Program-made: the position numbers and the translations under genes
The notes under the pieces: generated by a model
Databases searched by the model: none
The model's input: the letters and a program-made list of their open reading frames with translations, nothing else
What the model was told of the DNA's origin: nothing
Shown: positions 27-27,009 of the stretch, one piece after another
Layout of the letters: each line of letters starts with the position of its first letter
How positions within the stretch are numbered: position 1 is the stretch's first letter
Virus record (IMG/VR): IMGVR_UViG_3300025759_000448
Span: 1-30,055 of that record
Source: a virus
Length of the DNA: 30,055 nt
Strand: one strand, 5' to 3'

Positions 27-46
27 AGGACACTTTAAGGGGCCCA
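27..46 (-). repeat. Junction repeat copy R1
   Basis: The plus strand reads AGGACACTTTAAGGGGCCCA. It differs from the consensus only in the two or three central bases. It overlaps the 3' end of the ligase-like gene, whose TAA stop (37..35) lies inside the repeat, so the repeat encodes that protein's last residues (WAP). It is the first of seven copies in the same orientation. Confidence 0.85.
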
Positions 47-963: not shown

Positions 964-1206
964 TCAATCAATGGGCAGTTTTGCTACACTTTTACCTTTT
1001 CTATGTTTTTCAATAAAGTTGATTGCTGATTGGCGATTGCGACATGTTTTAATTTGTCTCCCGCGATGTATAACAACTAATTGTGTTTTACTACCAGACA
1101 ATGGCACTGCTGCATAAACATTAGGGTCATTCCAGTTACCAACAATAAAACCTAGTGGGGATTGTTGTGGTTCAAGAATATAAGAATTTGTTGGTTGATA
1201 ACTCAT
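964..1206 (-). CDS. Small protein of unknown function (80 aa)
   Basis: The product begins MSYQPTNSYILEPQQSP and has a basic C-terminal half with R/K-rich patches (RGRQIKTCRNRQ, KHRKGKS), which suggests but does not prove nucleic-acid contact. No catalytic motif is visible. Its ATG overlaps the stop of the upstream SF2 helicase by 4 nt (ATGA type), so the two are translationally coupled and presumably co-expressed. Repeat R2 follows 3 nt after its stop. I do not recognise a named family. Confidence 0.8.
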   Translation of the reverse strand: MSYQPTNSYILEPQQSPLGFIVGNWNDPNVYAAVPLSGSKTQLVVIHRGRQIKTCRNRQSAINFIEKHRKGKSVAKLPID

Positions 1207-2393
1207 CTGCGGATCTCCGAAACTGCTGGCAAACCTTGCTCAAATACGGTGTCAACGACTGCCTGAACCTTGCGGGAGGTAGAGATACCCACAGAGTCAT
1301 AAACGGGCACACAGACCAATCCAAAGGTCTTGTGGCTGCCTCCTAGACGTATAACTCGTCCAATAGACTGGCTAATACCTATAAAGTCCATGTTGCGGAG
1401 GAAAATTACCGACTCTAAACCATTTACGTTGATACCTTCAGATAGAATAGAGTGATGAAGAACCACAAACTTCTTGTTGGAATCTTTACCCCAAGCATTG
1501 AGAGTGTCAAAAAATACCTCACGGTTCACTTTCTGACCGTCAATGATAGCACCAGTCTTGCTGGTGATTGTCATCCAAGACATGCCACGTTTGGCACATT
1601 CAAGTGCAAAATCACTCTCACCGATAAGACCAACAATCTGTTTGGTAGTGCGAGCACAGACCAGAACTTTATCAGTTTGCTGGTCATCAATGGTCTGCAT
1701 CAGAAAGTCACAATCACGAGACCAAATCTTGAACTTATCCTGAACCATATCAAGTTGCTTTACAACAACTTTGGGAGGGAGAATGTATCCACCATCAACA
1801 AGCTCTGGAGCAGGAACATTGACCAGGACTTGACCATAAACTTCTGGGTCATTCATCCCTGGTTTGCTCACCGTAAGAGAATGTTTCGGAGTCGCAGTAA
1901 AGAAATAGCAACGATCAGCATCATGAGAGAAAAACTCTGTAGAAGGAAAGAAGTTTCGTTGAACAGAATTGTGTGCTTCATCAAAGTAAATGTTATTAAC
2001 TTCAATATCTGCTTGACGAACTCTGTCCAGAGAATGATAGGTGGTGAAGATGATTACATTCTCACCAGCTGTGCGAGCAGTGTTAGCAAACAATGCAATC
2101 TTCTCTGGATTAGTGGTAGAGAAGTGATGTGTCTCACCACTATGAACGTGCATAATGTGATTGTAATTTGTATCAATAATCTCCAGAAACTCGCTGCAAA
2201 GTTGTTCTGCAAGAAGAATACGAGGAGCAACCACAACCGTGGTCATTCCGTTATCAATGTGCTTACAATTCTCTGCAACATCTTGAATCATACAGATAGT
2301 TTTGCCACCACCAGTAGGCACAATAATTTGACCCTTATCATAGGCAAGCATACGATCAAGAATACGTTGCTGATGAGGACGAAGTGTGACCAT
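1203..2393 (-). CDS. SF2 DEAD/DEAH-box helicase, UvsW-like
   Basis: The 396-aa product has superfamily 2 helicase motifs in order. These are a Q-like LRPHQQRIL at the N-terminus, Walker A PTGGGKT (26-32), DEAH in IYFDEAHN (138-141), TATP (166-169) and motif VI QSIGRVIR (342-349). It should be an ATP-dependent DNA or RNA/DNA unwinding enzyme. In T4-like phages UvsW plays such a role in recombination and replication-fork control, but this protein is about 100 residues shorter than T4 UvsW and lacks an N-terminal extension, so the orthology is uncertain. I choose ATG 2393 (MVTLRPHQ). The longer TTG-started frame to 2444 would begin inside the promoter. A consensus early promoter lies at 2417-2444 and repeat R3 lies upstream of that. 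It is coupled to the downstream 80-aa gene. Confidence 0.85.
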   Translation of the reverse strand: MVTLRPHQQRILDRMLAYDKGQIIVPTGGGKTICMIQDVAENCKHIDNGMTTVVVAPRILLAEQLCSEFLEIIDTNYNHIMHVHSGETHHFSTTNPEKIALFANTARTAGENVIIFTTYHSLDRVRQADIEVNNIYFDEAHNSVQRNFFPSTEFFSHDADRCYFFTATPKHSLTVSKPGMNDPEVYGQVLVNVPAPELVDGGYILPPKVVVKQLDMVQDKFKIWSRDCDFLMQTIDDQQTDKVLVCARTTKQIVGLIGESDFALECAKRGMSWMTITSKTGAIIDGQKVNREVFFDTLNAWGKDSNKKFVVLHHSILSEGINVNGLESVIFLRNMDFIGISQSIGRVIRLGGSHKTFGLVCVPVYDSVGISTSRKVQAVVDTVFEQGLPAVSEIRR

Positions 2394-2416: not shown

Positions 2417-2444
2417 AGTATAACACCCTCAACGTCAGTGTCAA
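2417..2444 (-). promoter_or_regulatory. Early sigma70 promoter inside a stem-loop
   Basis: On the minus strand TTGACA (2444..2439), a 16-nt spacer and TATACT (2422..2417) form a near-perfect host sigma70 promoter for the helicase operon, with an expected start near 2410. The -35 is part of an inverted repeat at 2420-2433/2440-2453, 14 bp in RNA with two G-U pairs and a 6-nt loop. Read-through RNA would fold over the promoter region. The layout recalls the promoter-early-stem-loop cassettes described for T4-type phages. Confidence 0.85.
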
Positions 2445-2475
2445 GGGTGTTATGGACGATTATGGACTCACTACA

Positions 2476-2495
2476 AGGACACTTTGAAGGGCCCA
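2476..2495 (-). repeat. Junction repeat copy R3
   Basis: The plus strand reads AGGACACTTTGAAGGGCCCA, identical to R2. It lies 6 nt after the stop of the basic MKTF-type protein gene and upstream of the early promoter of the helicase operon. Confidence 0.9.
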
Positions 2496-3928: not shown

Positions 3929-3948
3929 GGAACACTTTAGAGGGCCCA
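3929..3948 (-). repeat. Junction repeat copy R4
   Basis: The plus strand reads GGAACACTTTAGAGGGCCCA. ACACTTT and AGGGCCCA are conserved, while the two bases between them and the outer bases vary. It lies 3 nt after the stop of the 47-aa gene and 27 nt before the start of the acidic 46-aa gene. Confidence 0.85.
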
Positions 3949-5290: not shown

Positions 5291-5310
5291 AGAACACTTT
5301 GAAGGGCCCA
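5291..5310 (-). repeat. Junction repeat copy R5
   Basis: The plus strand reads AGAACACTTTGAAGGGCCCA, one base from the consensus. It lies 3 nt after the stop of the 53-aa gene and 28 nt before the start of the 60-aa gene. Confidence 0.9.
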
Positions 5311-5552: not shown

Positions 5553-5750
5553 TTAACACTTTGTAACAATATCAACGTTGATGTGATGATGATAATATGC
5601 GTTTACAACCATACCAAGCATTACTAACCAGTATAGTGCAATTGACATCGTTCCTATAGTAACCATTTTACCAGGATATTTGCAAAACGTATTGTCTTGC
5701 CCCAGATTCATGGTTACATAAGTGACTATGTTTTTTTGTTTAGCCGCCAT
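5553..5750 (-). CDS. Small single-pass membrane protein (65 aa)
   Basis: Starting at ATG 5750 gives MAAKQKNIVTYVTMNLGQDN, then a hydrophobic segment of about 25 residues (TIGTMSIALYWLVMLGMVV) and a His-rich end (YYHHHINVD). One transmembrane helix is clear. The ATG overlaps the end of the secreted glycine-zipper gene by 11 nt (ATGGCGGCTAA). The frame extends to a TTG at 5765, but the ATG is the better start. Co-expression with a signal-peptide protein suggests a joint envelope role, which is inference. Confidence 0.65.
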   Translation of the reverse strand: MAAKQKNIVTYVTMNLGQDNTFCKYPGKMVTIGTMSIALYWLVMLGMVVNAYYHHHINVDIVTKC

Positions 5751-6165
5751 CAATTTGACATCCAACTAATGCACCAGCTACAATGCCTGTAGGAATCGCC
5801 CAAAAGCGTCCATCTCCTCTAGACAAAGCTGCACCGGCACCACCACCAGCAATACCACCTAATATACTTCCTTCAATACATGAATTATCGTCTTTCTTTC
5901 CATTAGATTTGCTTTGATTATTGTTGTTATTGGAATGATAGTGATGATGTTCAGATCTATAACTTCTATGTCTGTGGCATGGAACTCTAGATCTAGTTGT
6001 CTTTACATAACCACCAACATATCTTCCCCAACGATTACGATACCCTGGCACATATTCTTCTATATTCTCATAGCAATATGATTCATGATACATATAAACC
6101 TCTGCACTTGCAGGAGCAGCAGAACAAAAAACAGTTAATGCCAGAAGAAGAGGTTGCAGTTTCAT
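5740..6165 (-). CDS. Secreted glycine-zipper protein
   Basis: From ATG 6165 the product (141 aa) has a classical signal peptide, MKLQPLLLALTVFCSAAPAS, with a predicted signal-peptidase I site after ASA. Next come a Tyr/Arg/His-rich region (YRSEHHHYHSNNNNNQ) and a C-terminal glycine-zipper segment (GSILGGIAGGGAGAALSRGD ... GIVAGALVGC). Such Gly-zipper domains associate with or insert in membranes, as in the 17-kDa/2TM surface-antigen families. An exported phage product may act in the host periplasm or outer membrane, for example in superinfection exclusion or envelope remodelling; the role is not proven. An ATG 12 nt upstream (6177) lies almost at the predicted transcript start and is less likely. 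A strong early promoter precedes it. Confidence 0.75.
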   Translation of the reverse strand: MKLQPLLLALTVFCSAAPASAEVYMYHESYCYENIEEYVPGYRNRWGRYVGGYVKTTRSRVPCHRHRSYRSEHHHYHSNNNNNQSKSNGKKDDNSCIEGSILGGIAGGGAGAALSRGDGRFWAIPTGIVAGALVGCQIDGG

Positions 6166-6185
6166 GAGATTTACCATCCAGTTTT

Positions 6186-6214
6186 AGTATAAAACCCCTG
6201 ACGGGTTACGTCAA
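6186..6214 (-). promoter_or_regulatory. Early sigma70 promoter fused to a terminator-like hairpin
   Basis: TTGACG (6214..6209), a 17-nt spacer and TATACT (6191..6186) make a strong sigma70 promoter for the glycine-zipper gene. The -35 lies in one arm of a stem (6195-6203/6209-6217, 9 bp in RNA with one U-G, loop of 5) that is followed directly by TTTT leading into the -10. The same bases thus look like a Rho-independent terminator for the upstream 58-aa gene. Confidence 0.85.
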
Positions 6215-6217
6215 GGG
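6195..6217 (-). terminator. Rho-independent-like terminator overlapping a promoter
   Basis: RNA read from the 58-aa gene would form CCCUUGACG/CGUCAGGGG with a 5-nt loop, then UUUU. It sits 13 nt after that gene's stop. Terminator and following promoter share the same bases. Confidence 0.6.
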
Positions 6218-6230
6218 CTATGTATTATTA

Positions 6231-6407
6231 TTATTCTTGATTGAGCACCTCCTTACAAATTTTTTTGCAGATATGCTGTTTGTCATCACATTCTATTAAA
6301 CATTGGTAGTAATCATTGATGACATCGCTTTGCTCATTGAAATGATTCAGTGTCGTTTCAAATTGCTTCCAACCCGCAAGTTGATTGTAAGAAATAAGAT
6401 TGTGCAT
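6231..6407 (-). CDS. Small twin CX3C protein (58 aa)
   Basis: From ATG 6407 the product begins MHNLISYNQLAGWKQFETTL and contains CLIEC-X6-CKKIC, that is CX3C-X6-CX3C, in a predicted helix. Paired CX3C motifs can form disulfide-linked helical hairpins or bind metal. I chose ATG 6407 because GGAGG lies 7 nt upstream; an in-frame ATG at 6425 lacks such a site. A late-type box lies at 6479-6487. I recall similar twin-CX3C small proteins in cyanophages but no function. Confidence 0.7.
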   Translation of the reverse strand: MHNLISYNQLAGWKQFETTLNHFNEQSDVINDYYQCLIECDDKQHICKKICKEVLNQE

Positions 6408-6431
6408 AATATCCTCCAAGCACATTGAACA

Positions 6432-6750: not shown

Positions 6751-6770
6751 AAAACACTTTGAAGGGCCCA
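6751..6770 (-). repeat. Junction repeat copy R6
   Basis: The plus strand reads AAAACACTTTGAAGGGCCCA. Unlike the other copies it lies 48 nt, not 0-6 nt, after the upstream stop (the DUF262 gene). It is 21 nt before the start of the 63-aa gene. Confidence 0.85.
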
Positions 6771-8184: not shown

Positions 8185-8204
8185 AGGACACTTTACAGGG
8201 CCCA
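8185..8204 (-). repeat. Junction repeat copy R7
   Basis: The plus strand reads AGGACACTTTACAGGGCCCA. It lies 2 nt after the stop of the YunG-like gene. It is the last copy seen; I noticed no GGGCCC in the rest of the window. Confidence 0.9.
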
Positions 8205-8739: not shown

Positions 8740-8768
8740 ATTGTACACATATTTTAAGTGTTTGTCAA
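8740..8768 (-). promoter_or_regulatory. Early sigma70 promoter
   Basis: TTGACA (8768..8763), a 17-nt spacer and TACAAT (8745..8740) form a strong promoter for the YunG-like gene. It starts 5 nt after a Rho-independent terminator. Confidence 0.88.
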
Positions 8769-8773
8769 GCATT

Positions 8774-8805
8774 AAAAAACCTCCTGAAACAAAAGTTCAA
8801 GAGGT
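8774..8805 (-). terminator. Rho-independent terminator
   Basis: On the minus strand a 10-bp stem (8805-8796/8788-8779, one U-G pair, 7-nt loop) is followed by a T-run. It lies 21 nt after the stop of the 77-aa gene and ends the sulfotransferase-glycosyltransferase transcript. Confidence 0.85.
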
Positions 8806-26499: not shown

Positions 26500-26782
26500 T
26501 GCGAGTAGGGAGACTTGAACTCCCACGACCGCAATGGTCAACAGATTTTCTTACCACTACAAGTTTCCTTGCCCTTACGGTTTGTGGTCTGGACTATCCC
26601 TTCACCATACCTTTCGGTTTAGGTGCTCCCCGTCTAGTCTCTACACCTTCATCTTGCGATGCTTGGCTCGGGATTGCCATTTTACAGGTTTCCCCGAATT
26701 TGAGGAGTTACACTCATAAGATTTCTCAAATGAGGCTCAATTTTCATAAGTCTGGTGTGTCTACCGATTCCACCATACTCGC
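26500..26782 (-). tRNA. trnL-UAA: tRNA-Leu(UAA) interrupted by a group I intron
   Basis: The two exons (26782-26748 and 26549-26500) join into an 85-nt class II tRNA. The acceptor stem GCGAGTA/TACTCGC is perfect, the anticodon arm is CAGA-CTTAAAA-TCTG with anticodon UAA, and there is a long variable arm (GACC/GGTC) and a T-arm with GTTCAAGTC. The genomic sequence has no CCA after the discriminator A. The interruption lies between U34 and A35 of the anticodon, exactly where cyanobacterial and plastid tRNA-Leu(UAA) genes carry their group I intron. It is the last gene of a four-tRNA cluster. Function depends on splicing. Confidence 0.95.
26550..26747 (-). ncRNA. Group I self-splicing intron in tRNA-Leu (198 nt)
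   Basis: The intron begins ATGAAAATTGAGCC. The GAG can pair with exon CUU to give P1 with the U-G pair at the 5' splice site. The P4/P5-type GGGGAAACC and GGCAATCCCGAGCCAAGC, the P7 guanosine-site strand GTAGAGACTAGACGGGGAGC and its partner GGATAGTCC are all present, in the same order as in the well-known cyanobacterial (Anabaena) tRNA-Leu intron. The last intron base is G (omega-G). No endonuclease ORF is inside. It should splice by two guanosine-initiated transesterifications. Confidence 0.93.
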
Positions 26783-26786
26783 AAGG

Positions 26787-26858
26787 TGGGTGATACTGGA
26801 TTCGAACCAGTGACCAATAGAATGTAAATCTACTGCGCTACCTCTGCGCCAATCACCC
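26787..26858 (-). tRNA. trnV-UAC: tRNA-Val(UAC)
   Basis: The acceptor stem GGGTGAT/ATCACCC is perfect. The anticodon stem GTAGA/TCTAT encloses loop TTTACAT with anticodon UAC, and the T-arm has GGTTCGAATCC. No CCA is encoded. It lies 4 nt from the tRNA-Leu gene. Confidence 0.93.
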
Positions 26859-26861
26859 GAG

Positions 26862-26934
26862 TGCTCCTTGTCAGGATCGAACTGACCTTTCTTCTGTTAT
26901 GAGCAGAGAGCTTTCACCAGAGAGCTAAAGGAGC
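26862..26934 (-). tRNA. tRNA with CAU anticodon (Met or lysidine-type Ile)
   Basis: The acceptor stem GCTCCTT/AAGGAGC is perfect. The anticodon loop is CTCATAA (anticodon CAU) on a stem with one C-A mismatch at its outer end, and the T-arm has AGTTCGATCC. The identity could be elongator Met or Ile2. The neighbouring tRNA-Ile(UAU) already reads AUA, which slightly favours Met. Confidence 0.9.
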
Positions 26935-26937
26935 AAG

Positions 26938-27009
26938 TGGGAATGCCGAGAATTGAACTCGGTTCACACGCTTATAAGGCATGGGCATTAACCAATATGC
27001 GACACTCCC
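26938..27009 (-). tRNA. trnI-UAU: tRNA-Ile(UAU)
   Basis: The acceptor stem GGGAGTG/CATTCCC has one G-U pair. The anticodon stem CATGC/GCGTG encloses CTTATAA with anticodon UAU, which reads AUA directly. It is the first tRNA of the cluster in transcription order, 10 nt after the stop of the 51-aa gene. Confidence 0.9.

Follow-up and report, generated by a model that had tools for sequence, protein, structure and literature searches.

The window, i.e., the whole stretch of 30,055 nucleotides that was analysed (IMG/VR record IMGVR_UViG_3300025759_000448), is a T4-like cyanophage fragment; the record itself is a viral fragment of 30 kb. A 12-kb megablast of the window matched Synechococcus T4-like phages only, with S-SCSM2R as the best match (77.5% over a helicase gene). 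The long genes are carried on the minus strand and therefore the junctions between them read from right to left. All promoter-like sites were rated with one uniform score, where at least 24 defines a strong composite and at least 28 a stricter tier. In class A composites the -35 hexamer forms the loop and thus the centre of the hairpin; in class B the hexamer lies in the 5' arm and the centre falls on the border of -35 and spacer. The features are as follows:

1203-2393, minus strand: gene downstream of the 2417-2453 composite, SF2 helicase of the T4-GC 36 type
2417-2453, minus strand: second composite, 14-bp stem (2453-2440 with 2433-2420), score 26
5740-6177, minus strand: gene downstream of the 6186 element, 145 aa, PHROG 767 (label cAMP phosphodiesterase)
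6186-6219, minus strand: composite element of class B, in which a hairpin and T-run overlap a sigma-70-like promoter; score 29
6186-6191, minus strand: -10 TATACT, its first T being the final T of the T-run
6193-6219, minus strand: hairpin, arms 6219-6209 and 6203-6193, loop UAACC at 6208-6204
6209-6214, minus strand: -35 TTGACG, within the 5' arm of the hairpin
6231-6425, minus strand: gene upstream of the 6186 element, 64 aa, PHROG 665
8740-8805, minus strand: tandem terminator and then promoter, no bases shared; hairpin 8805-8779, T-run 8778-8774

The minus strand of 6186-6219 reads AGCCCTTGACG-TAACC-CGTCAGGGGTT-T-TATACT and contains the promoter TTGACG-N17-TATACT. An earlier note on this DNA had described a 9-bp stem plus UUUU at 6186-6217, with a stem arm that is at the same time the -35 and a T-run that leads into the -10 of the next promoter. 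Both descriptions were borne out. The 9-bp core (CCCUUGACG/CGUCAGGGG) is lengthened to 11 bp in the fold, which reaches -16.8 kcal/mol with a z of -4.42 and was equalled by 0 of 200 shuffles. As the UUUU lies at 6194-6191, its final U doubles as the first base of the -10. Both a U-tract and a stable sense-strand hairpin are present, as in an intrinsic terminator. For the 145-aa gene the second in-frame ATG at 6165, 21 nt past the -10, is the likelier start.

At 2417-2453 the -35 had been placed inside a 14-bp stem, which also holds. The promoter is TTGACA (2444-2439)-N16-TATACT (2422-2417), and the stem (-19.4 kcal/mol, z -4.70) takes in five bases of TTGACA and extends into the -10. A clear U-tract was sought 3' of the stem, where ACTATC was found instead, and the strength of this terminator is therefore doubtful. 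The terminator seen 5 nt ahead of a -35 at 8740-8805 was found again, with AATGC between TTTTT and the -35 of TTGACA (8768-8763)-N17-TACAAT (8745-8740) and a hairpin of -13 kcal/mol (z -3.89). Two other strong promoters of the window, 4940-4912 and 8146-8118, were tried as further composites and rejected, their hairpins not being significant in the fold. The helicase at 1203-2393 shows 74% to SSM2_068 of S-SM2 and 19% to the gene annotated uvsW in the same phage; the annotation of S-SCSM2R names the homologous helicase UvsW, a label that is probably wrong for the T4-GC 36 type.

When relatives of the 145-aa protein were fetched, the -35 itself turned out to be the loop of the terminator upstream of many of them. 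The junctions read GGGAGTC-TTGACA-GACTCCC-TTTTTTTATA-TAAATT in L128, ATACCCC-TTGACA-GGGGTAT-TTTTTTGCTA-TAAATT in L162 and AGGAGGGG-TTGACG-CCCCTCC-TTTTTAATGC-TATAAT in L193. In the related loci, a sample that includes related phages and whose composite frequencies are biased because it was fetched around few genes, 33 of 759 promoter-like sites scored at least 24 and 20 at least 28. In the re-pairing null, for which the 25 nt upstream of each promoter were swapped with those of another promoter, these numbers were 0-6 and 0-1, respectively, and in reversed sequence (522 sites) they were 1 and 0. Strong composites made up 31 of 408 promoter-like sites in the helicase-gene loci. They were present also in loci fetched solely for an unrelated motif, so that the result is independent of the two bait genes.

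All 65 elements come after the end of an ORF. Their hexamers are 16-18 nt apart and suitably placed before the start codon (-10 to ATG typically 20-25 nt), as in a sigma-70-type promoter. The 65 elements were counted in 2.11 Mb of phage DNA, as opposed to a single one in 1.44 Mb of host cyanobacterial DNA, and a host origin of the composite was rejected on this count, the Synechococcus/Cyanobium part of the host DNA having only 3 promoter-like sites. The complete genome of the cultured phage S-SM2 holds three clear composites (sites 46772, 51979 and 167151), located before SSM2_056 (the homolog of the 145-aa gene of the window), SSM2_068 (helicase) and hli03, the last reading AGAGGAACCCT-TGAC-AGGGTTCCTTT-TTTACTA-TATAAT with a promoter of 12/12. 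In 50 kb of S-SCSM2R none lies above the automatic threshold, which demands a stricter -35; its helicase junction does carry a composite, with the -35 TTGCCT. Composite density therefore differs between phages.

The hairpins keep a fixed position relative to the promoter. In 347 strong cyanophage promoters their centres accumulate at +2 from the start of the -35 (27 sites, null 0.4) and, as a second register, at +8 (11 sites, null 0.2). The U-tract is strong in class A, where it runs into the -10, and short or absent in class B elements, which may be weak terminators. An overlap imposed by chance in compact intergenic regions would be in line with the tandem, non-overlapping arrangement at 8740-8805 and with the two strong promoters of the window that have no hairpin. 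However, it would let the centres spread, and they cluster at two registers instead; in addition, 35 of 45 phages retain the layout at one and the same junction, and T4 and RB49 yielded 0 composites with the same scan. Chance overlap is thus barely credible.

That junction, in front of the helicase gene, has a strong stem at or shortly before the -10 in those 35 of 45 non-redundant sequences (shuffles 0-3), among them the cultured phages S-SCSM2R, S-8S56, ACG-2014f, S-H38 and S-SRM01. The composite is present in S-SCSM1 too. No strong stem was found in the helicase junctions of P-TIM68 (L287), S-RIM2 (L289), L219, L226, L229 and L254. A real terminator in which -35 and -10 are merely coincidental might be proposed, as some junctions hold a stem without a -35. 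Against this, 27 of the 35 helicase junctions examined contain a -35 that matches in 4/6 positions or more, 24 with a spacing of precisely 17 nt, and the distance from -10 to ATG is regular. When 61 non-redundant junctions were aligned on the -10, the TTGAC and TATAAT-like columns were by far the most conserved, in part owing to the way the set was selected, and arm positions mostly stayed below 0.4 bit. We therefore regard a terminator with a coincidental promoter as very improbable, and the nesting of a promoter in the terminator as the better account of these columns.

The pairing is kept as well. In fifteen non-redundant elements of class A that share one centre, the six inner pairs are formed in 15/15 cases and the seventh in 14/15, with several pair types at each position and 5-8 double changes; as these elements were picked for their hairpins, the re-pairing test is the control for this pairing. 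Homologous cyanophage junctions, when aligned, have the same predicted architecture with unrelated stem sequences. As separate observations, the hairpin and -10 are kept without a recognisable -35 in L221, L255, L256, L235, L269, L274 and L285, some having TGn before the -10, and a piece conserved in sequence lies 30-52 nt upstream of the -10, reading TAA-CTGTCCAC or GTGGCACA (L285, L289, L286, L236, L250, L216). This piece is often a dyad GACAGT-N5-8-ACTGTC that overlaps the upstream gene's stop codon, and it may serve as an activator site or form a second hairpin.

A palindrome over the -35 is a common position for an operator. The inverted repeat could accordingly be a DNA site bound by a dimeric regulator, with the RNA fold being incidental, and the extra conserved dyad just upstream of many stems would suit such a site. 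An operator would, however, keep its letters, whereas here the arm letters vary and the pairing is kept. Moreover, 42 elements score at least 24 when G-U pairs in the sense of the gene are allowed, but only 15 when the mirror A-C pairs are allowed, although the re-paired nulls are alike (G-U 0-3, A-C 2-3). The T-runs are one-sided: in class A, T fills 5.0 of 7 positions after the 3' arm, and the corresponding value for A before the 5' arm is 1.6. The operator was ruled out on the mirror score, and we hold it to be highly unlikely. The preference for G-U over A-C and the polar T-runs therefore argue for selection on the RNA hairpin of the upstream gene, as expected of a terminator rather than of a symmetric operator.

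Geometry, selected pairing, strand polarity, intergenic position and restriction to phages are thereby established at the level of sequence comparison. Most probably the composite is a gene-junction element of T4-like cyanophages: the intrinsic terminator that closes the upstream gene would enclose the host-type (sigma-70-like) promoter from which the downstream gene is read. Comparison among cyanophages gives strong support to the proposal of the earlier note that one set of bases makes up both a terminator and an early promoter, with both functions being predicted. In the proposed mechanism the RNA of the upstream gene would fold into a hairpin that has the -35 hexamer as its loop in class A and as its 5' arm in class B. 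Because the U-tract continues into the -10, polymerase would be expected to halt at the -10 or immediately ahead of it. RNA from the nested promoter would begin downstream of the -10 and lack the hairpin, so that the same DNA would end the old transcript and spare the new one. We infer that polymerase both terminates and initiates at the composite. The benefit would presumably be compact insulation: early genes would be insulated in minimal space because the upstream RNA ends at the U-tract and the new RNA begins past the hairpin.

More speculatively, a polymerase stopped at the composite would already occupy the following promoter and may start again from there. In vitro, E. coli polymerase restarts after 37% of terminations and after 55% with added sigma (PMC6978380). 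In this single-molecule recycling, observed with separate transcription units (PMC6978380), a polymerase retained on the DNA after RNA release can restart at nearby promoters; the composite would place it directly on one. A relay, in which polymerase halted at the U-tract rebinds sigma and re-initiates, so that a row of early genes is served by host polymerase handed on from gene to gene with each gene insulated, is a rather doubtful extension.

It had also been suggested that related junctions be compared for movement of the element as a unit. Such movement found little support, as 61 different stems were counted among the 65 elements. In its favour, near-identical elements precede unrelated genes in four pairs, two of which share one partner. 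The closest pair is L239 3828 and 4949 (95% of 42 nt). These pairs would also suit an element that is chiefly a mobile or recombination cassette spread between genes, with its expression signals being secondary. However, the stems are almost all distinct and the helicase junction retains its layout despite changed sequence, which suggests maintenance in place. A cassette is therefore very unlikely as the main explanation; movement of composites is possible in places without being the main story, and their mobility as a unit is largely unsupported. The nested promoter and terminator remain our reading of the junctions.

Arbiol in 2010 (GBE 2:140) and Comeau in 2014 (GBE 6:1611), both cited in PMC4503421, are said to have described PeSLs (promoter early stem-loops) as composite promoter-terminator motifs of T4-type phages. 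The likeness pointed out in the earlier note is right in kind, since in both a sigma-70-type early promoter is combined with a stem-loop in the junctions that separate small early genes of T4-like phages. The note had seen a difference in the order, stem-loop and then promoter, with shared bases; this distinction fails because RB49 shows both. We took the stem-loops of RB49 as its PeSLs, an assignment made here from the RB49 sequence. Terminators lie upstream of its early promoters at 34481, 45322 and 47732 (centre about -27 relative to the -35), spacer hairpins at 33335 and 43031 (+13.5 to +14) and hairpins on the -10 at 36985, 38220, 39130, 42355 and others (+22.5 to +25.5), and base sharing is frequent there as well. 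A register scan of strong promoters gave about +24 and +14 for RB49 and no register for T4. In RB49 the hairpins are thus on the spacer, on the -10 or upstream, whereas those of cyanophages are on the -35 (about +2.5) or on the border of -35 and spacer (+7.5 to +8.5). Furthermore, the spacer and -10 hairpins of RB49 mostly have no U-tract, in contrast to class A of the cyanophages. The tandem at 8740-8805 fits the upstream-type register of RB49. The composite would work like a PeSL, but we do not file it as a member; the novelty appears to lie in the combination of a U-tract with the -35 register.

With intrinsic terminators the composite has the GC-rich stem, the short loop and the T-run on the sense side in common. 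It differs in that its loop or 5' arm is a -35 and its T-run is part of the spacer and the -10 of the next promoter. Among the open-licence papers on overlapping terminator/promoter elements we found none that describes a loop formed by the -35.

In the composites a predicted end signal and a predicted start signal are written in the same about 40 bases, and selection keeps this layout across many cyanophages while leaving the letters free. They provide a natural system with predicted termination and re-initiation superimposed, and being small and close to the E. coli sigma-70 consensus they are easily tested in vitro. PeSL density in S-PM2 is reported to be much lower than in other T4-like phages (PMC4503421). 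The composites qualify the view, derived from S-PM2, of cyanophages as poor in PeSL-like elements (PMC4503421), since the register of the cyanophage layout would let it escape a search designed for the RB49 type.

A second motif of the gene junctions was found in seven copies on the minus strand of the window (28-46, 942-960, 2477-2495, 3930-3948, 5292-5310, 6752-6770 and 8186-8204). This box reads TGGGCCCTNNAAAGTGTCC, followed in relatives by TAGTAGTATGAG. IMG/VR contigs contain 255 non-redundant copies, 246 of which follow a stop codon within 60 nt, the distances peaking at 4 and 8 nt, and the next ATG lies 25 or 40-48 nt beyond the box. At the sensitivity used, 50,697 records of cultured phages gave no match. 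With its 16-bp box and the -10-like TAGTAT it looks like an undescribed class of phage promoter. The cultured phage S-SM2 (GU071095) has a related box, AAGGGGGGTCGCCTAAAGCGTCCCTATAGTATGAGCAC, in twelve copies on the sense strand; they are confined to the small-ORF region at 42695-58530, and one of them precedes the helicase-gene composite closely.

The hairpin of the helicase junction might then be the 5' leader of an RNA made from this promoter-like box, protecting or regulating that RNA without being a terminator. Both in the window (2477-2495) and in S-SM2 (box 51940, composite 51979) the box immediately precedes the composite on its 5' side, and the 2417 stem of the window has no U-tract. 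However, the U-tracts of class A are strong, no box occurs within 500 bases upstream of the 6186 site and the box is itself only a putative promoter. Compared with a terminator that holds the next promoter, a leader is rather improbable.

Elsewhere in the window, a match to a group I intron was observed at 26568-26757 on the minus strand, beside three tRNA genes (region 26568-27009).
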